Below, one piece after another: positions 9,291 to 34,008 of a stretch of DNA of 64,000 nucleotides. Each line of letters begins with the position of its first letter. Positions within the stretch are counted from its first letter, which is position 1. A program made the translations under genes and the position numbers. This stretch comes from Haliclystus octoradiatus (Eukaryota; Cnidaria; Staurozoa; Stauromedusae; Haliclystidae): contig OU744453.1 in assembly GCA_916610825.1 (NCBI GenBank), positions 9,629,826 to 9,693,825 of the forward strand, given 5' to 3'. The notes under the pieces were generated by a model. That model saw nothing but the letters and a program-made list of their open reading frames with translations, was not told the origin of the DNA and made no database searches.

Positions 9291-9976
9291 TTTTTATCAA
9301 CGATTTTTCTGATTTTTTTTTAATATGAAGCAGTAAATCATTTTTAATTAACAAAAGATATCGTTTGATCATGTTAATAACAGAAATTAGTGGACCATGT
9401 GTCTTGTCGAAGCTAAATTAATTTAATACTGAATATATTGCATGCAATGCCACGAGTTTGACCGGCCACACCTTGACGGCGTTATTTTGTGAACACCACA
9501 TTAATGTTGTATATATTGCAATAAAGATTTATGAATTCGAACCGAACGCGATCCGATCGTGTCGGGTCAGATTCGGGTTAATATTTTAGGTCTTCGGATA
9601 GGATCGGATTTGAAGTGATTTTTTATGGAAAGTTTCCGATTTCGAAATTTGACTGAGTATTTGTAATTTATAATAATTAATGTGTTCTGGCTTCCTTTCA
9701 ACACATAAAATAAAGTTTTTCTATGTAGACAAAGCTACGTTAAATTATACATTTCAATCGACTCAATTGATGTGAAATAAATTAAATTTTTATTAAAGGA
9801 ATGATTAAGATGTATTGATTAATGCTACATCGTTTCAATGCGTATTGTGTCTAATGTTCTCCTCCAAAGTTCATACTCCGTATTATACTGCGATAGAAAG
9901 CTTAGTCAATTGTTTAATTATAAGTGATCTGAAAGTTTTATCATAGAAGGTCCATTATGGACTACACTCATTGCTA

Positions 9977-10352
<376 letters not shown>

Positions 10353-10633
10353 GAGAAAACTCTGAGAATTGCGACGTTTCGATATATCATATATCATTTT
10401 CAAGCAAAAGAGAATAAATTTAAAGTTTGACATGGTATATATAGTATAAAAAATAATCTAATTTACATAATCTATTGTATAATAATAACAATGAAATTTT
10501 ACGTACGGATACAAGACAAACAATGACTATTATAATTATACGGAAATACATTATGTGAATAATTTTGACTTCACTGAGTCAGTTTGCACGTTTAATGTAG
10601 GGTGCAACTCCCTGATGGCCAGCATCACGTGTA

Positions 10634-11020
10634 TTAGGCAATCAAATTTGAGGCACACTTCCTGACAACAGTAAACAGGCTTTTCTCGTTTAAAACGCTA
10701 CGTCCGTGACTTCTTAGATGTGCACCGACAGCCGACCCACTATGTCCAGCAACACGTTGATAAAGATGTTGACGAGTATAGCCAACATAACTCGCAGTAC
10801 ACGAGTCACATTTAAACAAATATACAACGCATTGCTCAGACAATAAGGCCGGCCTCGGCTCACGTACCCTTAAATTATCTATTAACTTTCTACTTGTGTA
10901 GACTGGTCTAAAATGCTGCCCAATGCCTGCACTTAAAGAATTCAACTGTCTCCTAAGCGAATTCGCAGAGGTCCTGGTCCTTAAACGGCAGTACGATGTT
11001 AATAATCTTACTGTTGTCAA
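10634..11020 (-). pseudogene. Penelope-like GIY-YIG endonuclease domain
   Basis: A 128-codon open segment in the position of the C-terminal endonuclease. It contains VVYLFKCDSC (the GIY position reads VVY), YVGYTRQHL (YIG reads YVG, with the following Arg) and a downstream HSGSAVGAHLRSHG region. In Penelope-like elements this domain nicks target DNA. It is in a different frame from the upstream RT blocks, so it could not be translated as a fusion in this copy. Confidence 0.88.
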
Positions 11021-11038
11021 GAAGTGGCCTATATACTT

Positions 11039-12470
11039 CTACATTATTATTAATGTTAGATAAAAAATTTTCAGATATATTATTATTAATGCTACAGGAT
11101 AAGCTAACTTTAAAAATGTGTCCTTTATTCTTGAGCATTCAATATCAAAATGCTCTTTGTTAGAAGACAATCGGTGCGCTCGATTGAGCATTGTCCATAG
11201 CAGTCCTTTCTTGTACCTGTCATCTACGTGACTTTGATAGTGCAGTAGTAGCCCGTTATCCGTTGATTTATGATAAACAGAGGTACTAAATTGATTAATA
11301 TTATTATGTAACGTAATTCCGACAAATGATAAATCATTCCCTTCCTGCATTTCCATTGTGAATTCAAGATCTGATATACTATTTAATGTTATCAAAAAAT
11401 CTTTTAGCTTCTTTTTCATCTGACATACCCGCTAATGTGTCATCTACATATCTACGATAGTATTGCAGCAATAGTTTGTCTTTATCTAAGGCATTTTCTA
11501 GATGACACATATATACATTTGCCATAAGGGGACCTAGCGGCGAACCCATAGCAACGCCATCAATTTGCTCAAAGAGCTCGCCGTTAAATTGGAATAATTG
11601 ATCCTTCGTAGCTAAATATAATAATTCCGACAATTCGTCAGGCGTCATTGCTAATTTGTAAGTTTTATTAAACCAATTTTCTTTGAATGCCTGATCAATC
11701 AATATTTTTATTGTATCATCGACTGGAATGTTCGTAAACAATGACCGCTACGTCATAGGAAACTATTAAGTCATTGCTGTTTAACGACAAAGACTTTAAT
11801 TCTTCACATAATTCGTAAACATCAGTAACCGTGAAGGAGTTACAAGAAAGTGGTTTTAGCTTATCTTCCAACCATTTTGCTAATTTAAAATTATATGTAT
11901 TGGTGGCTGATAATATAGGCCTCATAGAAAGTTCTTGTTTGTGGGTTTTTGGTAACCCGTATAAGTGAGCTAATCGCGATCCCCGTGGTTTAATTACATC
12001 ACCAATGTCTTTTGGTATAATATGTTCTGGATTGCTTCAGTTACAAGTCTTTCTTTTGATAACAACGGATGATCTACTTTTCTAGGTCGTCCCCTCTTTC
12101 TTCGTTCCTTCTGTGTACGCCCTGAACTTAGTCGTGATATCTATTGAGGCTTTCTTTAAAAGATTATTATAATTTACCTTATCCATGACGACCACGCCAT
12201 TTCCTTTATCGGGCTTAGTTATGACAATATCGTCACGCTTCTTGAGTCGTTTTACCGCTAATAGTATAATATATATAATGCTTTGGAGGAGATTGCCTTT
12301 TTCGTTTTGCGTAATTCAAAGCAATAGACCTTAAAGTAGAGGTAGCCAGCTCTTTAGATCCTTCATCCAAATTTTTGTCTAGTTGCCAGCAAGCTTTTTC
12401 AAAACTAGCCAGGATTGTGTTTGAATCATGACTATTACCTCTCGTTGGTAATGAAAATTATAAACCTCGT
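11039..12470 (-). pseudogene. Penelope-like reverse transcriptase, frameshifted
   Basis: From the 5' side I read the motif ITKPDKGNGVVVMD (around 12200), then a YGLPKTHK block with RPILS (around 11930), the SYDV box (around 11750), FTNIPVDD after a frameshift near 11735, GVAMGSPLGPLMAN (around 11540) and the catalytic YVDD (around 11440). A further block, LSFVGITLH to HRLSSN, lies at 11160-11330. These are signature Penelope-like RT motifs. At least three frame changes and stops near 12060 and 12110 separate the pieces. The intact polymerase would copy the element's RNA at nicked chromosomal DNA. Confidence 0.88.
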
Positions 12471-18100: not shown

Positions 18101-21100
18101 TGACATCACTTATTTACTTTTATTTATTTTTTTTTGATTATCATTTTTCCACAAACAGGGTAAGCTTGCAGCTTTTTTTCACCGGGGTAGTTGGTTAATT
18201 TGTTAGTATTTTGAAGCTTTGTGCGTTTAATAGCCGGATGCCCTTCCTGATGCCAACCAACCTATAGTGCTCCGGACAGGAATTGAACCTGAGACCCTGC
18301 GGGCCGTGGTCCAACGCCCTAGCCACTACACCAAGGCCGCTTTATATTTGTACTTTATTACTTTTATGGCTACATAGAATTTCTCATACGCTTTTCCATC
18401 TTTTATTTCATTTATTTTAGAAACTTAAACTATTTATGAGTTTATAGATGCATATATTTATTATCTGTCAGAATTCAGAAATAGCACGGAAAATCATAGG
18501 GAAAAGGAGAACAGGAAGCAGGTTTTAGTATAATATGGGTGGTCATTGTAGCCAGGGAAATAGACTGTCTGTTCAAACCTCCATTCGTTTCAAACTGCAA
18601 GATGCATCATTTTCAATGTTTTTCAAACGTTGGTTATATGTAATTTATCTATACGCTTCTAGAGACTAGAGTTTGGTGTGTTGGAAAATTGGAGCTGCAG
18701 CAGACTTTTCTCCCGTCCGAATTTGTCCAATGAATTTAATATAATAAATAAATAAATGAATAAATATATAAACATATATATTATTTGTCTTTACTGAATG
18801 TGAGAATGCTCAATACAATACAGCAGAGCGTGTAATACAATTGAAAATAGACTATTTTCAATTATAATATATAAATTATTTATCTATAAAGCTGTTTTAT
18901 TGTACAAGGAATCCAGTAAATAACAGCAAGCTATTAAATCGATCAATTGAAAACCATATGCAAGTGGCCTTTATATACAGGGTTCGTTCAACAACAAAAA
19001 ATACTATTTTAGTGGTGGGATACCGTAGATACGAATTTCATATTGATAACTTATGCTATCAACTATTAAGAGAATACATCACTCTGGTGAGTGGGTTATC
19101 AGAATATTAAGTTATCAGTCTAAATTTCAATGGCCCACGAAAAATGGGTGATGTTTTCATTTTAATAATGATGTAGCATATCTTTCGTCTGGAACATCAA
19201 TCATCTCTCATCAATTTCACCACAACAGTGATATGTTTTCTAATTTAATGGGTCATTGATTTTTCATTAAATACAATTTGAATGAAATTCCTACCAATAT
19301 CATTTCAAAATATAACGCGAAGAATGTAACATATTTGCAAAATATTGAAAATATAGTAAGAGCTACATCTGAATATAGCAAATCCCAGGTACAAATCCGC
19401 TAATCCTGACTCAAGTTTTTTTCAAGTGATTATTGAAAAAGTATATATACAATTCAACTAGATAAATAATGGAAATTTGTTCACACCTGTGCAGGAATAG
19501 TGCTCAATGATAGATATCAGAGCTTTGATAGATTAATGAATAAAATGAGTCAAAAAAGAGACATACTGTTCTCGCTACTTGCCTGATGATCGCCGCGTAT
19601 GGCGTGAAATTCGGAGTAGCGAGAACAGTATGTCTCTTTTTTGACTCATTTTATTCATAAATCTACAATTCAACTATAAAAGTATATACATTATACAGTA
19701 AAAGCCCAAACGTACTGCTGTCTTTGCATTTTCGTCAAATGCATTATCAACGAATAGTTTTCCGATTGCAAACATGAAGCTGCTCATGAGGTTGTTAATA
19801 CACGTTTCACCTCTTGGCTTCTCCTGTTTGATGCCGTAAACAGTTGCCCTCAATTCGTTCATTGTATTTCTGTATGGCATAGGAAGTAGGTTGGAGACTC
19901 GAATCAATATTGCCATTATGAATAAGGTTGCTTGAACCCTAAAAAATAATGATTAAATAGAAATTAATTATCAGAACTTATTTTTAATTAATTAAGTATA
20001 TTAGCTGACTTATCTGATTAATATTTCAATCTAAAACCTATAGCGCAACCCCAAGGATGTATAAGCCTGCCCTATATGTGTATTATATAATTATATTGAA
20101 AGACAAAGTATTGCTGTATTTGTATATTGTGTTGATTCTAAATTGCAAAGTTCAAAGGCCAGAGAGAGGTGTGAGAGGATGATGAAGGAAAGAATTAATA
20201 AAGTTTTTTATAGTAAAAATAACAGTAAAGTTAGATGTTATGTATGTAAAGGAAATAGTATTATATTCATTGAAAGAAAAGGTGTTTATTATTGGTATAT
20301 AATCTTACACTACAATAAGTAACCGACAATAATTATGTGTAACCATCTATCATGCAGTGCATCGATATGTCTTTCTGCAAATAAAAAAGTCGATACTCGC
20401 CTGATGATCGCCGTATGGCGTGAAACTCGAAGTAGCGACAACTGTATGTCTCTCTTTTTGTATTCGTTTTATTTATTTAATAATCTTACACTATGCATAG
20501 CCGTTAAATTGTAATTGATATTCTTCATCTAGCAAATCACGTAAGTGATGTATATTTCAAGCTATGGTAATATAGTTATGTCATCCGGTGTAAATCATTT
20601 AGCATAAGTAACTTTCAAACGGCATAATTAAAAAATGATATAGAACATTTCTACTGCATGCATCACAGATTTTAACGACCAGATACGGCACTGAAAGTAC
20701 GAAAATTGTGATTGGTCAAATAACGGCTATTATGTTTGTTGCCTATTTTCGACGCATTTCATCGTTGTCCATTACGATTTTAGGGATTTATCTACAAAAT
20801 GATACTTAAAATAATTCACTTTTGAAGCTGAATTCAGCCTTTCTCAAGCTACTCAATGCAAGTGGATGGATGATACGCTATATATAAAATTCAAAATCAT
20901 AATTTGATATTAGCAAATCTATTTTAAATGCCATAAATTCAAAAACCTAGAAAGTCTACGGTTGAAATGAAGAAAGGACGACAATATTTATAGTTTATCA
21001 CATAAATTTCATTGTAAACTGTAAAATAATATGCACTGATGCTTGATGATATGGAATAACGCAATCACATTCAAAGAATAGGCTATTTGGAGTGGATTTA

Positions 21101-27100: not shown

Positions 27101-29534
27101 GACAGTTTCATGGAAACGAGGTCTTGCTTTTGAACATAATGTATTTCGAATTCATGATATTATTTTTAAGCGCTTTGTTCAAATTTCGAGAGCCTGGGTA
27201 TGGCGGAGCAAAAATAAGATCCATAAAACCACGTGACTGGCATCTGTGTAGTTTGATATAGCTATGAAATTAATCAATTCATTGATATATTCTCTGATCC
27301 TTGATAAATCTTTTAAATATTTAACAAATTAATAACTGACAGAAATTGTTGATATAGATAAATTCTTACACTGATTATGTTCTTTGTTGTGTCTCTTAAA
27401 TTTGGGCTGATACTCATTTTCATAAATGGTGTAACTCCCAAATTTTTTGATATAGCAATCAACGTATCATCTAACTCCCATTGATTGGCATCAAAATCTT
27501 CATTGATTGGCCATGATCCATAATCACGTATTACTTCCTTAACTTTAGCAATGATGTCGCCTACTGGCTCGTCAATTTTCATACATGAGTCGTATAATTT
27601 CTTCATCTTCAACATGGCATCTCCCTAAGCAGATCAATTAATAAATCATGAGTGATCTAGAAAGTTCTCACCGTTCACTATAATCATAGGGTGATCTATC
27701 GCGTGGATATTTCTAAAACTCTATTAACAAATCTTAAAATAACATAAGGGGTGTAGGAGTTACAGCCATCTGTCATGGATATTCATCCCCCTCGTCGGGG
27801 AAAACAATTTTCGGATGTCTCAGGGAATTTTTTGGGTATTCCAAACACTTTTCATATATCATTTCTATAAATAGTCCTTTTTCTTCTGGGAGCTAGCTAG
27901 GGAGATGTCAGGGAAATCCAAATGCCACCCATCTTAAAGAACAAAGAAAGATCAAGTTGTAGTTGACAAGACCATTAGTTTGTTTAGATTTCTTATTAAG
28001 TACATGATTTTCCATGTCCTCATAAAAAGCATAGGCATAGGCTGTACGATTGATTTCCTGATTCGCGGCAACTTACTTATTCCTGGTAAAACTTACCTTG
28101 TCATGAAAAAAACTTACTTACTCATGGCTTAAAATTTAATAAGATTTAATAGAAATTATTTCAATATATTTTTATACGGATTCATTGGTGACCTTAAATA
28201 ATAAATGCTTCAATCGTTCATTATTTGGGAGTTTTCATATGCCTTACGCCATTTACTTGACCAATGAAAAGATGAATAGTGTAATTCTCAGAGGAACTCT
28301 CAAGCAGCTTTCAAGGACATGCTCAATCTCTAAATAGGTAAAAGCGATTTAATTTTTTCACTCATAGGTTCATTCACTAAATTGTGATTGATGGGCAAGG
28401 ATGAATTTAATATTGAATGGCATACTAACTGTTTCTCCCTCCATTGATGGAAGCTCAGACATTAATTTTATAAGAAGCTTTGAATTTTTTTTAATCAATT
28501 CAGTGAATCGACTATTTTTTGACTCTGATTTTTTTAATGGGTTCTTCTTGATCCAGTTTCCACATGAGTAGGTGAAAAAATCATCGCATGGGTTGATGTC
28601 TTGGTTCATATCACCGATTGCATCTTGAAACATAAATAATTTCAATTTCGTTATAAAGCAGACTTATAGTTTGATTTTATTGCATGGTTTTATTGATTTT
28701 ATTGTGAATATGTGTTATTTTGAATTCCTATTGACCAACAATTATTAACTACAAAATGATATTCGCATTAAAATTAACAGTATCATATATAAAGTAATCA
28801 TGAAAAATGACTGTCTTTGCCAGAAATCCATGTCTTTTGCCATAGATTGGCATTGACGCATACAATTCAATAAATTAAAATAAAATTAATTCATTAAATT
28901 CATAAAAGACCCTCCTGAAAACAATCAAAGATGAGTGAGAATTCCTCTCTAAATATCAAATATATTATATATTGGCACTAATTTGGTTTTCAAGGCAAAT
29001 AAGGCTCCACGATAAACGTCATAAGAGACTATAATACTCCTGGCAATTGACTTTGGCGCAACTTTTAGAGAAGCCATCGTTCCACAGGGAAGAACAACAC
29101 AGATATATTAAGCAACTAAAAATACATCTGTATCTTCGCTGTTCTCGAAATTCCGATCTATTGCGTATTTTGTTTTTCATGCTCTCTCATAGGCGGTCAA
29201 ATATTTATGAGTTTGAGTGACATTTTTCGAAAAGTCTTTATTCTCCTCGAGATCAATGCTCATAAATATAGATATACAATATAGATAAGTATTGACCATA
29301 TCATCGTAGTGATTAACGTGCATTCAGACAAGATTGATTGATCATTTTGCAGAATGATTTATATCGTTGAGCCATTACTTCGTAATAACAAATCTTACCA
29401 AGCAAATTCTTCATCTTCAGTTCTTCCTCATCCAGAACAGGATCATCAACGGTTACTTCATCTTCAACAATGCTAGGAAATCCATTCAAGGAATTTAACA
29501 AAAATGGAAATATGTATAAAATGAAAATAAACAT
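15060..29534 (-). CDS. M13-family (neprilysin-like) peptidase gene, N-terminal domain only
   Basis: Twelve exons on the minus strand join without a phase error into about 518 codons. They encode a signal peptide, then the M13 N-terminal (neprilysin-type) domain: NPCDDFFTYSCGNW near the start, LYDSCM and GSWPINEDF in exon 3, FLKFQRDLAKQVGA in exon 5, NRWLERVLEL in exon 7, TWMDEATKLKGIEK in exon 9, NIAYPSFI in exon 10, and FFENTLEM...FKKPVDK then MVNAYHDP (family NAYY-P) in exon 12. M13 enzymes are zinc ectopeptidases of about 700-780 residues that cut small peptides. The downstream exons carrying the zinc-binding HExxH and the ExxxD glutamate were not found down to coordinate 1. The gene is truncated, has a very long intron leading out of the window, or ends in the alternative exon at 14633-14928. 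A cleaved signal peptide suggests a secreted form, not the usual type II membrane form. Confidence 0.88.
15249..15352 (-). CDS. M13 gene exon 11
   Basis: Acceptor TTTCAAG, donor GTAAGT. It encodes DNFFENTLEMDKFERSLNL and KKFKKPVDKSE, matching the F.N......F.....L.K...PVDR..W block. Ends in phase 2, which joins exon 12 to give the conserved Trp. Confidence 0.92.
15499..16658. mobile_element. Foldback element with tandem-repeat termini, ~1.16 kb
   Basis: The left arm (15499-15805) consists of about four degenerate ~55 bp repeats with the pattern CGGAGTAACAATAATTC...GAATAATTCAAAGACATC, then a run of AATATGTGCG-type repeats. The right arm (about 16367-16658) carries the same modules inverted, ending in TTTGAGCC as the complement of the opening GGCTCAAA. 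The centre is unrelated AT-rich sequence. This architecture resembles foldback (FB/TU-type) elements. It lies in the intron between M13 exons 10 and 11. Confidence 0.72.
17096..17173 (-). CDS. M13 gene exon 10
   Basis: 26 codons with acceptor TTCCAG and donor GTAAGA. It encodes NQNIAYPSFIQNKEKLDRYY, matching the family's IGYP..I....LD.YY block. Confidence 0.92.
17888..17986 (-). CDS. M13 gene exon 9
   Basis: 33 codons with acceptor CTTCAG and donor GTAAGC. It encodes EMIEGVRESLIEGMSAVTWM followed by DEATKLKGIEK, the strongly conserved helix that ends in W.D..T...A..K in M13 proteins. Confidence 0.93.
18165..18345 (-). mobile_element. tRNA-derived SINE
   Basis: The tRNA-like head at 18269-18340 (minus) has a box A TGGTGTAGTGG (18323-18333) and a perfect box B GGTTCAATTCC (18279-18289). 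It is followed by a tail containing GGAAGGGCATCCGGC, a phrase I associate with tRNA-SINE and RTE-type tails in several invertebrates and fishes. Located in an M13 intron. Confidence 0.85.
19536..19658 (+). mobile_element. Palindromic element enclosing a hammerhead-like core
   Basis: Two perfect 43 bp inverted arms (19536-19578 and 19616-19658), starting ATGAATAAAATGAGTC, enclose a 37-base centre. The right arm begins exactly at the predicted hammerhead cleavage position region. A related single-arm copy lies at about 20380-20465. No coding capacity. Confidence 0.85.
19579..19622 (+). ncRNA. Hammerhead ribozyme-like sequence, copy 1
   Basis: CTGATGA (19583-19589) and GAAA (19606-19609) flank a CGCC/GGCG stem II. 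A minimal stem III with a 5-base loop leads to GTA (19616-19618) as the predicted cleavage triplet. Stem I is TTGC/GCGA with one wobble pair. Short-stem-III hammerheads are known from Penelope-like elements and retrozymes. Caveat: the base pair next to the core in stem II would be U-U, not the usual G-C. Confidence 0.6.
19716..19938 (-). CDS. M13 gene exon 8
   Basis: Acceptor TTTTTTAG, donor GTACGT; 223 bases joining phase 2 to phase 0. It encodes ATLFIMAILIRVSNLLPMPY and a CINNLMSSFMFAIGKLFVDN block. The latter matches the family's C....M..A.G..YV motif, including the conserved cysteine. Confidence 0.9.
20396..20440 (+). ncRNA. Hammerhead ribozyme-like sequence, copy 2
   Basis: CTGATGA (20401-20407), stem II CGCC-GTAT-GGCG, GAAA (20422-20425), C-loop-G minimal stem III and GTA (20432-20434) before stem I GCGA. 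The 5' strand TCGC directly precedes CTGATGA, so stem I pairs perfectly over four bases. Downstream CTGTATGTCTCTCTTTTTG matches the flank of copy 1, so both belong to one repeat family. It has the same U-U caveat in stem II. Confidence 0.62.
20664..21633. mobile_element. Non-autonomous hAT-like transposon, 970 bp
   Basis: Terminal inverted repeats of about 34 bp with one mismatch, beginning CACAGATT(T/A)TAACGACCAG. Exact 8 bp target duplication GCATGCAT at 20656-20663 and 21634-21641. No transposase ORF. Located in the intron between M13 exons 7 and 8. Confidence 0.92.
21711..21847 (-). CDS. M13 gene exon 7
   Basis: Acceptor AATATAG, donor GTGAGT. It encodes NRWLERVLEL and MSPEYVGKAYKIVTSQPK, corresponding to the family's W..F...L and the segment before the paired-strand/helix region. 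Ends in phase 2. Confidence 0.88.
22847..22936 (-). CDS. M13 gene exon 6
   Basis: 30 codons with acceptor CGCAG and donor GTAAGT. It encodes EENYKTMTIAEFEEFSGIP, matching the family's Y.KMTLAEL block. Phase 0 at both ends. Confidence 0.9.
23060..23810 (-). mobile_element. 5'-truncated non-LTR retrotransposon (LINE)
   Basis: The minus strand encodes the C-terminal part of a LINE polyprotein: RVLKVYIRPILESATPVWNP and KVQRKFTKYI (23521-23802). The same frame continues past an in-frame stop at about 23521 with an ESLEIQRIKQDL block. After one frame change the protein ends in RNYFAIRIIPLWN near 23300. A 3' untranslated part ends in AATAAAATACATACATAC, a microsatellite-like tail. 5' truncation with a 3' simple-repeat tail is typical of LINE insertion. 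Dead copy. Confidence 0.88.
23873..23986 (-). CDS. M13 gene exon 5
   Basis: 38 codons with acceptor TTTTAG and donor GTGAGT. It encodes AAFLKFQRDLAKQVGA and AFDVVLQLAE, the helical block with an alternating hydrophobic pattern typical of the M13 N-terminal domain. Phase 0 at both ends. Confidence 0.9.
24405..24470 (-). CDS. M13 gene exon 4
   Basis: 22 codons with acceptor TTTTAG and a non-consensus donor GTTGGT. It encodes FFPSREAMVSDKEHY, matching the family's LPSREYYL block. The join to exon 3 is in phase. Confidence 0.85.
25007..26636. mobile_element. Long-TIR DNA element, ~1.63 kb
   Basis: The left arm (25007-25166) and right arm (about 26390-26636) are inverted copies starting AGTAGTAAGTATAGTGA. 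Shared phrases include GTTCAAACACAAAG, GGTATGACTTTG / AGTATGACTTTG, AAATGAG and the CTTCnAGTTTGATAAA block. The right arm has about 85 extra bases, an internal GACATCCCCA/CAATCCCCAG-type repeat. Flanking hexamers TAAGGG and GAAGGG match at 5 of 6. AG termini, long TIRs and 6 bp duplications resemble Polinton/Maverick ends, but that assignment is tentative. Confidence 0.68.
25169..25890 (+). pseudogene. Unrecognised broken ORF inside the long-TIR element
   Basis: Coding-like sequence starts at ATG 25169, just inside the left terminal repeat, and continues in changing frames to about 25890. Readable segments are MAQAMLNKKTRTRPLAINLW (start), then after a frame change near 25260 a block ending ELWSNG. 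Next comes the frame around 25332-25573 with one stop near 25396 (DLEDLIFKCPKLLERVYIPS), the frame around 25575-25780 (AAKVFIITMTQEGKYGMLAL) and a last block to 25880. Four or more lesions mean it is dead. I do not recognise the family. Its position suggests a gene carried by the element. Confidence 0.5.
27026..27245. mobile_element. MITE copy related to 13005-13256
   Basis: Starts CTATTTGTAAGAGTTGGAAC and shares the body with the 13 kb copy (GGGGCTCGAA, GAGGTCTTGCTTTTGAACA, GATCCATAAAA). The right terminal repeat is not present, so this copy is truncated. It lies upstream of M13 exon 3 in transcriptional terms inside an intron. Confidence 0.6.
27370..27624 (-). CDS. M13 gene exon 3
   Basis: 85 codons between acceptor CTTAG and donor GTAAGA. 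It encodes MLKMKKLYDSCMKID (family K...Y.SCM block), the GSWPINEDFDANQWELDDTL region and LGVTPFMKMSISPNLRDTTK. Both ends are phase 0. Confidence 0.93.
28430..28623 (-). CDS. M13 gene exon 2
   Basis: Acceptor TTTCAAG before 28623, donor GTTAGT after 28430. It completes a split Asp codon from exon 1 and carries MNQDINPCDDFFTYSCGNW, the most recognisable block at the start of the M13 N-terminal domain, with two of the family's disulphide cysteines. Ends in phase 0. Confidence 0.93.
29399..29534 (-). CDS. M13 gene exon 1 (signal peptide)
   Basis: Starts at the ATG at 29534-29532. The first 18 residues are a hydrophobic signal sequence (MFIFILYIFPFLLNSLNG), followed by an acidic stretch (VEDEVTVDDPVLDEEELKMK). 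The donor GTAAGA follows 29399, leaving phase 1. The family's usual cytoplasmic tail and transmembrane anchor are not seen. Confidence 0.75.
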
Positions 29535-30000: not shown

Positions 30001-30081
30001 TGTTTAAATTATTATAATTATAAGATTGACTAAGTTAGTTCGCTGATCAATAATTGATTACGCCAAATTGCCTACATAAGA

Positions 30082-32292
30082 ATGGCAAAATACACACAAC
30101 CAGAGAAGTTTGACTTCAAAGCCGAACATTGGGAGGATTGGCTTGAAGATTTTAGATGTTTTAGGAGAGCAACAGAGCTACACAAAGCCGAAGGAGAGAG
30201 TCAGAGAGATGCGCTCCTATACTGCATGGGTACAAAAGATGCCGTAAAAATCCTGAAAACATTTACATGGGATACCAAACGTATAGCAAAATCGGATGGT
30301 ACATTTGAAACACTGAGAGAAAGTGACAATAACTTTGAAACAGTGACAAGAAAATTTACAGAATACTTTCAACCTAAAAGAAATCTTATACACGAGAGAG
30401 CAATTTTTCAAACTCGTACTCAATTGGAAAACGAAACGGTTGAAGAATACGTGCGAGAATTACAAAAGTTAATACAGCATTGTAAATATCTTGACGCAGA
30501 TGAACAAGTTAGAGATAGAGTAGTGATTGGATTGCGTGATGCTCAAGTGAGAAAAAAGTTGCAATTGACTGCTGATTTAACATTGTCTAAAGCAATCACA
30601 ATCGCTCGTCAAACAGAAATGGTAAAACTTCAGATGAAAGAACAAAATAAAGCTAGTTCAAGTGAAAATGATCTACAAGAGGTTAAATATAAGAAAAACA
30701 AAGGAAAGAGATTTCAGAGCAATAGACAACAATGGAAAAAAACGGAAAACAATCGAAAACAATCGAAAAACTTAAAAGCGAATACTGGAGATTGTGGTCG
30801 CTGTGGTAGAAATCACGAAAAAGGGCGTTGTCCAGCATATGGTAAGACGTGTCATAAATGTAAAAATACAGGACATTTTGCCAGTAAATGTAGATCTACT
30901 AATATAAGAGAAGTAGCTACAGATAATGACAGTAGTGATAATGATAGTGGTACCCTATTTCTTGATGCATTATTTGCGAAAGCAGATATTGAGAGATGGA
31001 CAGTACAATTAGAAACTTCAAAGACAAATGTTAATTTCAAAATTGATACTGGAGCAGATGTAACTATCATGAGTAAAAGTTCATTTGATTTGTTAAAAGT
31101 GAAACCAACATTATCACAATCTAAGATGAAGTTAACGTCACCAGGGGGAGATGTATCTGTAAAAGGCTTTTTTACTACCACTTTACATAAAAATGGCAAG
31201 AGATCGCAAGTAAAAATTTACGTATGTGATGGTCCCAAGAATAATTTACTAAGCCGAGAAGCATGTATAAATTTGGGATTAATTGCACGATTAGACGAAA
31301 CAAAAATATTTGATAGCCACGGTTTAATGGATACTGCTCCTGTAAACATTGTATTAAAAGCAAATATAGAACCATATTGTTTGGCTACGCCAAGGAGAAT
31401 TGCATTTCCGTTAATGGAGATGGTTAAAGACGAAATCAATAGAATGGAAAACAATGGTATTATTGAAAAAGTTGATATTCCTACTGATTGGTGCGCTCCA
31501 ATGGTTCCTGTTAAGAAAAAGAATGGAATGGTAAGAATTTGTGTTGACTATAAACATCTAAATTCGAATGTTAAAAGAGAACATTTAATGCTACCTAATT
31601 TAGATGATATTACTCCTAAATTAGTTGATGCAAGACATTTTACATTCCTAGATGCATCAGGTGGATATTATCAAATTCCGCTAGATAATAAGAGTAAACT
31701 ATTAACTACTTTTATAACTCCATTTGGTCGTTATTGTTTTAAACGTATTCCAACGGGTATTACTAGCGCCCCTGAAATATTTCAAAAGAAAATGCAAGCG
31801 TTGCTAGAGGGGTTACCAGGATGTGATGTAATAATGGATGACATAATTGTATATGGCAAAACACAAAAAGAGCACGATGAACATTTAGAAGCTGTTTATG
31901 AGCGTGTCCGAATATCAGGTTTAAAATTAAATCGTGAAAAATGTCAAATAAATAAATCAGAAATCGTTTATTTTGGACATTTAATAAGTGGGGCAGGAAT
32001 TAAGCCGCACCCAAATAAATTACAAGCTTTAAGAGATCTACCAATACCAACATGTGTATCTGAATTAAGAACTGTGCTTGGTATGTTTAATTATTTAGCA
32101 AGATTTATATCAGAGTTGTCCAGTGTATTGTCGCCGTTAAGTGATTTACTGAAGAAAAATATTAGCTGGTACTGGGGACCAGTGCAAAATGAAGCGTTTG
32201 CTAAAGTAAAGGATTTAATATTAAAACTTCCATCATTACAATACTATGATGTTCACAAAGATATCATTGTTAGTGCAGATGCCAGTTCTTAA
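30082..32292 (+). CDS. gypsy Gag-Pol (gag, protease, RT, start of RNase H)
   Basis: A single 736-codon frame. The Gag part is followed by two zinc knuckles at about residues 238-270 (CGRCGRNHEKGRC and CHKCKNTGHFASKC). The aspartic protease motif FKIDTGADVTIMS lies at about residue 320. RT spans about 420-680, with FGRYCFKRIPTGITSAPEIF and the catalytic box IMDDIIVYG (residue ~585, Met in place of the usual Leu). The RNase H start SADASS is followed at once by an in-frame TAA at 32290-32292. Gag and Pol are in one frame, as in several gypsy lineages that do not use a gag-pol frameshift. Confidence 0.95.
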   Translation: MAKYTQPEKFDFKAEHWEDWLEDFRCFRRATELHKAEGESQRDALLYCMGTKDAVKILKTFTWDTKRIAKSDGTFETLRESDNNFETVTRKFTEYFQPKRNLIHERAIFQTRTQLENETVEEYVRELQKLIQHCKYLDADEQVRDRVVIGLRDAQVRKKLQLTADLTLSKAITIARQTEMVKLQMKEQNKASSSENDLQEVKYKKNKGKRFQSNRQQWKKTENNRKQSKNLKANTGDCGRCGRNHEKGRCPAYGKTCHKCKNTGHFASKCRSTNIREVATDNDSSDNDSGTLFLDALFAKADIERWTVQLETSKTNVNFKIDTGADVTIMSKSSFDLLKVKPTLSQSKMKLTSPGGDVSVKGFFTTTLHKNGKRSQVKIYVCDGPKNNLLSREACINLGLIARLDETKIFDSHGLMDTAPVNIVLKANIEPYCLATPRRIAFPLMEMVKDEINRMENNGIIEKVDIPTDWCAPMVPVKKKNGMVRICVDYKHLNSNVKREHLMLPNLDDITPKLVDARHFTFLDASGGYYQIPLDNKSKLLTTFITPFGRYCFKRIPTGITSAPEIFQKKMQALLEGLPGCDVIMDDIIVYGKTQKEHDEHLEAVYERVRISGLKLNREKCQINKSEIVYFGHLISGAGIKPHPNKLQALRDLPIPTCVSELRTVLGMFNYLARFISELSSVLSPLSDLLKKNISWYWGPVQNEAFAKVKDLILKLPSLQYYDVHKDIIVSADASS

Positions 32293-32703
32293 GGCCTTGG
32301 TGGAGTACTTCTACAAAGACACGACGATGGTCTAATGCCTGTTGCATTCTGTTCAAGAAGGTTAACAGATGCTGAGAAGAGATACTCACAAATTGAGAAG
32401 GAGTGTCTTGCTAGTGTTTGGGCATGTGAGAAATTTTCCAAGTATTTAATTGGTTTAAACGATTTCGAACTATTAACGGATCACAAACCTTTAGTACCCT
32501 TGATGACTACGAAAGATTTAGATAAATGCCCTATACGTTGCCAAAGATTATTAATGAGGTTAATGAGATTTAATCCTAGAGTACGTCATGTACCTGGAAA
32601 AGAATTAGTTATTGCCGATGCTTTATCGAGAAGTATAATTATACCATCAGATATTGAAAAATTACAAGCATTGGAGGTGGAAGCATATATGTTGATTATG
32701 TAA
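32293..32703 (+). pseudogene. gypsy RNase H segment after nonsense codon
   Basis: The same frame continues past the stop with RNase H motifs: [20 protein letters not shown], the LLTDHKPL block and [15 protein letters not shown]. It closes at the TAA at 32701-32703. A short AT-repeat slip just before 32700 displaces the downstream integrase into another frame. Confidence 0.9.
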
Positions 32704-33761
32704 TGTCTTCCTTACCCATTAGTTCTAAAAGATTATCAAGTTTAAGGGAGGAGACAGCGAAGGATCAAGTATTACAGAAAGTGATTTATTATATTAATAC
32801 TAACTGGCCTTTAACCGAAAATATTAATAATGATTTAAAACCGTATGCTTTAGCCAAAGGAGAGCTCAGTATATCAGACGGTTTGTTAATATACCAAAAT
32901 AGAGTAGTTATTCCACATGATAGTAAAAACTACATTTTAGAAAAATTGCATGAAAGTCATTTAGGGATTACTAAATGTAGAAATAATGCTAAAAACACGG
33001 TCTGGTGGCCAGGTATTTCAAAAGATATTAATGACACTGTTACCAGATGTAAGAAGTGCCAACAGAAACGACCGAGTCAGAAGAAAGAGCCACTAAATCC
33101 TACTCCTTTACCTTCCAGACCGTGGGAGAAAATCGGTACAGATTTAATTGAATGGAATAAAAAGACATATGTTGTTGTAGCTGATTATTACTCGCGATGG
33201 ATTGAACTTAAACAATTAACAGCCACTCGTACAGCCAATGTGGTTGCAGCATTAAAATCTATCTTCGCCATACATGGAATTCCTGATGAAGTTGTAAGTG
33301 ACAATGGACCTCAATTTTCATCGGATGAATTTGAAGAGTTTGAAACCAACTATGGATTTTGGCACAATCCTTCAGCACCATATAACCCACAAGCAAACGG
33401 GGAAGCTGAAAGATCAGTCCAAACAGCAAAGAAAATATTAGATAATGATGACGTAAATATTGCATTACTACTCTACCGTACAACTCCGCATTCAGCAACT
33501 GGAGTTAGCCCATCAATTGCGCTAATGGATCGGCAATTACAGAATAAGTTACCATCAATTAATAGAAATTTGATGCCTGTCAATCCAAATGACAAAGATA
33601 TTAGAAGAAAAGATAATGAGTCTAAAAGAAAGAATAAAACTTATTATGATAAACGCCATGGAACAAAAGATTTACCACAATTAAAAATTAATGACGATGT
33701 CAGAGTTAAATTGGATCATGAAAAAGGTTGGAAAAAAAATTGGAAAAATTATTCATTGTAA
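32703..33761 (+). CDS. gypsy integrase
   Basis: 352 codons. The N-terminal zinc-binding HHCC domain is visible as LHESHLGITKCRNN...RCKKCQ (residues ~80-122). The DDE core is visible as GTDLIEW (Asp ~146), VSDNGPQFSS (Asp ~200) and NGEAERS (Glu ~235). The ORF ends early at 33761, because an extra base in a run of eight A (about 33732-33739) shifts the C-terminal part out of frame. The ATG at 32703 may not be a real start, as the segment would normally be part of the polyprotein. Confidence 0.93.
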   Translation: MSSLPISSKRLSSLREETAKDQVLQKVIYYINTNWPLTENINNDLKPYALAKGELSISDGLLIYQNRVVIPHDSKNYILEKLHESHLGITKCRNNAKNTVWWPGISKDINDTVTRCKKCQQKRPSQKKEPLNPTPLPSRPWEKIGTDLIEWNKKTYVVVADYYSRWIELKQLTATRTANVVAALKSIFAIHGIPDEVVSDNGPQFSSDEFEEFETNYGFWHNPSAPYNPQANGEAERSVQTAKKILDNDDVNIALLLYRTTPHSATGVSPSIALMDRQLQNKLPSINRNLMPVNPNDKDIRRKDNESKRKNKTYYDKRHGTKDLPQLKINDDVRVKLDHEKGWKKNWKNYSL

Positions 33762-34008
33762 TTATGATAGAAGATCGTATACAGTTAAAACGACTGATGG
33801 TTCGGAATATATACGTAATAGACGTCATTTACAATTTATACCAATTTCTGATCACGATGATAATAATGTTATTAGTCTTGAATTAGATGACGAAGATGAA
33901 TCTGATAATCCGATCGTAGCAAATAATCCGATCGTAAATGAAAATCCTCCGGAAAGGAGAAGTGGACGTTCTACAAAGCGCCCAGATTATTATGGATATA
34001 ATAAGTAA
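33740..34008 (+). pseudogene. gypsy integrase C-terminal tail, out of frame
   Basis: Continues the integrase in another frame: HCNYDRRSYTVKTTDG, RNRRHLQFIP, then an acidic stretch (LELDDEDESDNP) and a basic end RRSGRSTKRPDYYGYNK. No chromodomain. Confidence 0.85.

Follow-up and report, generated by a model that had tools for sequence, protein, structure and literature searches.

Minimal type I hammerhead ribozymes were reportedly described from Penelope-like elements (PLE) by Cervera and de la Pena in 2014 and by Lunse, Weinberg and Breaker in 2017. Minimal hammerheads have been reported in the pseudo-long terminal repeats (pseudo-LTRs) of these elements (PMC7761336, PMC7229834, PMC11167929), their role being called still a mystery in a review (PMC7761336), while the insertions of rotifer Penelope elements are described as head-to-head inverted pseudo-LTRs with a "tail" on one inverted arm and with target-site duplications (PMC3846280). 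Here, we present the computational analysis of a window of 64,000 nucleotides (nt) from the staurozoan Haliclystus octoradiatus (contig OU744453.1, positions 9,629,826 to 9,693,825 of the forward strand), in which an initial annotation, made from the letters of the DNA, had noticed two hammerhead-like motifs, one of them framed by an inverted repeat. The best explanation, which we consider very probable, is that of two independent pseudo-LTR insertions of an endonuclease-bearing PLE whose open reading frame (ORF) is closely followed by a minimal type I hammerhead. It is carried by evidence from sequence, namely the covariation of the hammerhead fold, the place of the motif after PLE ORFs, the target-site duplications and the head-to-head layout. 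Minimal PLE hammerheads and inverted pseudo-LTRs are already known from the cited accounts, and apart from a possibly new loop covariation the locus is of a known kind.

The two motifs are placed as follows.

19575..19626, plus strand: hammerhead 1, core CTGATGA at 19583-19589, predicted cleavage after 19618, found by covariance model R1 (45.2 bits) and by descriptor
20393..20442, plus strand: hammerhead 2, core CTGATGA at 20401-20407, predicted cleavage after 20434, found by covariance model R1 (58 bits)

Reading off the cores confirmed the elements listed by the initial annotation at both sites, i.e. CTGATGA, a CGCC/GGCG stem II, GAAA, a minimal stem III (of 3 bp) and a GTA ending at 19618 and 20434, and a loose hammerhead descriptor applied to both strands of the whole window was passed by these two sites only. 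The search with Rfam hammerhead models that the annotation had proposed gave nothing: the window had no Rfam match at the gathering threshold, and the three matches obtained up to E 10 between 18500 and 21500 did not include a hammerhead. An RF00008 search of the genome was also without match, although it says little, since the same search matched none of 14 control genomes. A covariance model (R1) built from 14 other genomic copies and from zero window sequences nonetheless recovered both sites, at 58 bits (E 4e-15) for 20393-20442 and 45.2 bits (E 3.3e-11) for 19575-19626, the third-ranked match in the window reaching 13.5 bits.

The exact core pattern occurs 710 times (373 + 337) in the 262-Mb genome, and its reversed control 0 times. 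Anchored extraction from the fetched loci yielded 85 distinct sites, of which 69 were retained by a filter acting on stem III alone; the 16 sites removed included two resembling hammerhead copies. Pairs 1 and 4 of stem I were standard in 65 of the 69 sites each, above all 2000 shuffles, and after collapsing the sites to 19 clusters they were still standard in 18 (0 of 2000 shuffles) and 17 clusters (4 of 2000), respectively. Pair 2 of stem II was standard in 66/69 sites (8 of 2000 shuffles) and in 19/19 clusters (28 of 2000); pair 4 of the same stem was likewise standard in 66/69 sites (4 of 2000), yet in 17/19 clusters with 189 of 2000 shuffles doing as well. The other pairs were near-constant, weak or not kept: no signal beyond composition came from pair 2 of stem I or from pair 3 of stem II, that of stem I pair 3 was weak, and stem I pair 5 was not maintained among the clusters.

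A second comparison was based on 14 representatives picked by the analyst for diversity, in which 92.9% of cells were paired (83.4% when shuffled), doubly changed cells numbered 22 (7.8 when shuffled) and the covariation score was 0.437 (0.227 when shuffled), with 0 of 500 shuffles reaching any of these values. Sliding the structures by 1 to 3 columns lowered pairing to at most 58.0%, and stem III was A-U, C-G, U-A in all 14. Two of the five measures were without clear excess in this set, namely doubly changed pairs (62 of 500 shuffles) and further pair types (216 of 500). Taken as covariation, these results support hammerhead-type folds maintained by selection, and the compensatory changes in stems I and II among related copies bear out the folded RNA with conserved pairing that the initial annotation had proposed.

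The U-U opposition at the first stem II pair, regarded there as a weak point, is real; it is a family trait and not a sign of decay, T-T being present in 63 of the 69 distinct sites against G-C in 3 and A-T, T-A and A-A in 1 each, so that a standard pair is found in 5/69. The family thus combines a CUGANGA/GAAA/NUH core, covarying stems I and II, a short stem III and a pseudo-LTR place, and resembles minimal type I PLE hammerheads in its core, very short stem III, pseudo-LTR position and hundreds of dispersed copies, while possibly differing in the U-U of most copies. Further hammerhead lineages with other stems and loops, in some of which stem II opens with a standard pair, were observed in the same genome (L010, L013, L039, L060), as well as a PLE group with ORFs of 815-829 aa in which, by eye, a hammerhead-like core has GAAACG for GAAACT (L113, L114, L068 and relatives).

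The link to PLE comes from sister copies of the window sites, where the hammerhead lies downstream of a conserved PLE ORF end, and from a related PLE family, PLE-2, in which it lies between tandem ORFs (L091 and L116). This family has a C-terminal GIY-YIG endonuclease fold. Both window sites can thus be read, at the high probability given above to the whole explanation, as 5'-truncated PLE 3' ends, or pseudo-LTRs. The second of them is the simpler case, and lies beyond a host exon.

20299..20312, no strand: left target-site duplication of insertion 2, ATAATCTTACACTA, 14 bp
20313..20479, plus strand: insertion 2, a single PLE 3' end, 5'-truncated within the final codons of the ORF and bounded by the duplication
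20480..20493, no strand: right target-site duplication of insertion 2, ATAATCTTACACTA again
19716..19938, minus strand: host Peptidase_M13_N exon (Pfam PF05649, E 1.2e-9, profile 268-335), with AG/GT borders recognised by eye

Within insertion 2, positions 20317-20335 match L015 at 19/19 bases after a PLE C-terminus, and the downstream part is 87% identical to L017. The host exon sits between the two hammerheads, so they do not lie in one intron, contrary to the annotation, and do not form an 816-nt unit; a second Peptidase_M13_N exon, nearer to the start of the family (profile 59-134), lies at 27313-27624, and both hammerheads are antisense to this predicted M13-peptidase gene. Two direct hammerheads 816 nt apart could otherwise have suggested a retrozyme-like unit, i.e. 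a non-autonomous element bounded by them and excised as circular RNA, especially as the motifs are similar, on the same strand and spaced nearly as in plant retrozymes (~ 700 nt, PMC7229834), and as another same-strand core pair lies 870 nt apart (C1:34691749 and 34692619). This dimer was rejected, and we hold it to be hardly credible, given the intervening exon and a separate, different target duplication at each site, with neither the bounding nor the tandem-repeat feature of retrozymes being found. Metazoan non-LTR retrozymes do share type I hammerheads within small AT-rich repeats, although they are described as tandem repeats of ~ 150-450 bp (PMC7229834), unlike the single insertions of the window with an exon between them. 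The two sites, with their own duplications of 13 and 14 bp, are therefore read as separate insertions.

Insertion 1 is composite, and its parts are the following.

19448..19460, no strand: left target-site duplication of insertion 1, TACAATTCAACTA, the same 13-mer on both sides of the unit
19461-19663: insertion 1 as a whole, between the two TACAATTCAACTA copies
19461..19579, minus strand: minus-strand arm, a PLE pseudo-LTR that begins near the hammerhead cleavage site and reaches the distal 3' end (BLAST to L017, reference 101-224, 90% identity)
19576..19663, plus strand: plus-strand arm, a 5'-truncated pseudo-LTR with the complete hammerhead and the proximal 3' end (BLAST to L017, reference 64-151, 93% identity)
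19664..19676, no strand: right target-site duplication of insertion 1, TACAATTCAACTA again, 13 bp
19529..19579, plus strand: left arm of the inverted repeat, 51 nt, 98% complementary to the right arm
19615..19665, plus strand: right arm of the inverted repeat

The minus-strand arm holds no complete hammerhead core, and the two pseudo-LTR arms overlap by the letters TACT. The perfect inverted repeat noticed around this copy is borne out, with 44 perfect pairs within 51-nt arms and a single mismatch at 19535; the predicted cleavage point is indeed near the start of the right arm, at an offset of 4 bases rather than the three initially counted. That such a framing is unknown from Penelope-like elements is not supported: copy 1 shows, as a mirror image, the head-to-head layout described for rotifer PLE (PMC3846280). 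Head-to-head arms, one of them longer at its 3' end, target duplications and 5' truncation are common to both systems, whereas in Haliclystus pseudo-LTR parts often remain alone, the arms differ by ~ 70 nt instead of the 31-bp rotifer tail, and the window duplications measure 13-14 bp against 8-10 bp in rotifers (PMC3846280). Furthermore, the RNA of the inverted-repeat stretch is predicted to fold at -86.1 kcal/mol, 16.5 standard deviations below shuffled sequences (mean -26.0). As the hammerhead fold of copy 1 (-61.4 kcal/mol) would cost ~ 25 kcal/mol relative to this hairpin, the palindrome probably silences the ribozyme in the folding model, the cleavage strand being buried in the long hairpin, and co-transcriptional folding may still allow it.

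To place this junction among its relatives, 27 head-to-head units were compared on a common reference (L017:1452-1675, cleavage after 104). Twenty were fetched for their likeness to copy 1, and the long/short layout is therefore partly selected; L004, L005, L011, L018, L024 and L031 were fetched independently of this likeness. The junction table excludes L028 and L029, which coincide in place with L011 and L018, L020 (tail-to-tail), L006 and L017, whose head-to-head arms are separated by spacers of 98 and 142 nt, as well as L021, L042 and the other families. In all 27 units, one arm extends to 216-224, and the other to 149-156 (22 units) or 111-137 (5 units). Exact-core patterns define 76 head-to-head places and 0 tail-to-tail ones in the genome. 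Of the 19 units whose two borders could be located, 11 had a duplication score of at least 9 (length minus two per mismatch), a level attained by 5 of 342 mismatched pairs; the other 8 units scored below 9, borders were not found in 3 of 22 loci (L031, L100, L104), and the flanks are AT-rich. As a separate observation, many head-to-head junctions of the CGCC(TT or TC)GGCG families look near-symmetric, as both arms set in a little ahead of the hammerhead core, whereas the joins of the window family are scattered.

The join of copy 1 could be taken as a record of ribozyme cleavage in the animal, its minus arm ending where a cleaved RNA would start. That arm reads to 101, and to 105 if the TACT common to both arms is counted, its exact join being ambiguous through this 4-nt overlap, and cleavage is predicted after 104; L031 also ends at 105, and in L015 (857-960, minus strand) similarity stops, perhaps by chance, exactly at the cleavage base. 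However, the 54 inner arm ends span 49-126, only 3 of them lie within 103-107, and the end of L095 at 105 is reached via a mismatch. Since 45 of the 54 ends lie at 100 or below, most templates appear to have been copied across the cleavage site. Copies with GTA not followed by G were found at 79 places, mostly as substitutions in a continuing element, with about 5-8 unrelated by eye, and a few of them may likewise end at the cleavage base. In a control placed four bases further on there were 17 places, of which 1-2 looked unrelated, the two counts being hardly comparable since the patterns allow different numbers of letters. A cleavage footprint at the inverted junction is thus unsupported in the 27 units and seems to us very unlikely, the coincidence in copy 1 being, from these alignments, one of many junction positions and not a general one.

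Some observations weigh against assigning the window sites to PLE insertions. The link of the window subfamily to PLE goes through truncated copies and the related PLE-2. Model R1 matched only 5 of 37 PLE loci, one of them weakly, and three of the other matched loci (L065, L089 and L116) are themselves model rows. A reverse transcriptase in PLE-2 may be indicated by motifs recognised by eye in the relatives P0014 (YRDD) and P0045 and by a weak profile match of P0014 to group II reverse transcriptases (E 0.0038). Finally, L020 holds a tail-to-tail pair with an 83-nt gap. Pfam found no domain on the PLE-2 C-terminus and nothing relevant on seven relatives, and a PDB sequence search with the alignment was equally without relevant match. 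Across six comparisons, the likeness of the flank following the hammerhead to PLE-2 had z of 3.6 to 5.4, although in three of the six the score was also attained among 1000 shuffles. RVT_1 was recognised at E 4.4e-12 in L089, another PLE of the same genome.

Under the PLE insertion explanation, the RNA of the element would be copied by target-primed reverse transcription at a staggered cut. Insertion 2 would derive from a single cDNA truncated within the last ORF codons, and insertion 1 from two opposite cDNAs, the first started from the distal RNA 3' end and the second from the proximal one, whose truncated 5' ends would have been joined via the short TACT overlap. Two routes could lead to such head-to-head joins: both cut strands may serve as primers, or synthesis on an antisense transcript of the same elements may be self-primed. 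The latter has been proposed for rotifer PLE from junction palindromes (PMC3846280), and many junctions of other families in the same genome look near-palindromic. Priming on both strands is favoured by the different 3' starts of the arms in 27/27 units (216-224 against 111-156) and by in-vitro work in which both strands were cut and extended by a purified PLE protein (PMC11167929), both of which are compatible with self-priming too; we regard self-priming as possible but rather unlikely. The same in-vitro study describes internal initiation, which together with both-strand extension fits the two alternative 3' ends (PMC11167929).

In a living element, the ribozyme would act by cutting tandem transcripts of the PLE; given a stem III of only 3 bp, it would probably do so as a dimer. 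The two copies in the window would most likely be passive remnants. The in-vitro study reports no RNA-seq reads ending at the presumed cleavage site and deems cleavage unnecessary in vitro (PMC11167929), which weighs against a large role for cutting.

The stem III strand is usually nine bases long (A-C-T-x-y-z-A-G-T), and its loop positions 4 and 6 show standard pairing (C-G, T-A, A-T or T-G) at 65 of the 71 distinct sites (mean of shuffles 42.7; matched by 0 of 5000), window copy 2 being an exception with C-A. Among the 17 distinct loop strings, 13 keep this pairing (78 of 5000 shuffles), and positions 4-5 and 5-6 showed no excess over shuffles in the 71 sites. Because a one-base gap precludes pairing within a single hairpin, this covariation suggests a helix between two molecules, in indirect support of dimeric cleavage as published. 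Judging from its title, Lunse, Weinberg and Breaker (2017) reportedly claimed such a dimer. The loop covariation is possibly a new observation: no statement of it was found in the literature searched, which does not include the two papers of 2014 and 2017 named above, and no priority is claimed. Two PLE RNAs might also dock by pairing via the self-complementary stem III, supplying two oppositely copied templates at one target; although very improbable in our view, docking would, if true, explain the frequency of head-to-head pairs, and the 4/6 covariation would be kept for docking as well as for cleavage.

Elsewhere in the window, another PLE remnant with broken frames lies on the minus strand at 10634-12036, with RVT_1 at 11379-11744 (E 2.5e-8); GIY-YIG is matched there at 10634-11038, though below the cutoff (E 0.0026), and neither the descriptor nor model R1 found a hammerhead in this remnant. 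Long (AAT)n microsatellites adjoin PLE copy ends (window ~ 9950-10400, L061, L065, L083, L089), and look as if they were insertion target or product. Large ORFs at 30058-34008 on the plus strand have, by eye, the look of a Gypsy-type LTR retrotransposon.

For the biology of this family, a ribozyme framed by a near-perfect palindrome, however odd-looking, is a normal PLE scar. With 710 exact cores of a single pattern, besides several further lineages, the genome holds a large natural series in which the dimer helix of these ribozymes can be read from sequence alone, and through which ideas on what PLE hammerheads do can be tested.
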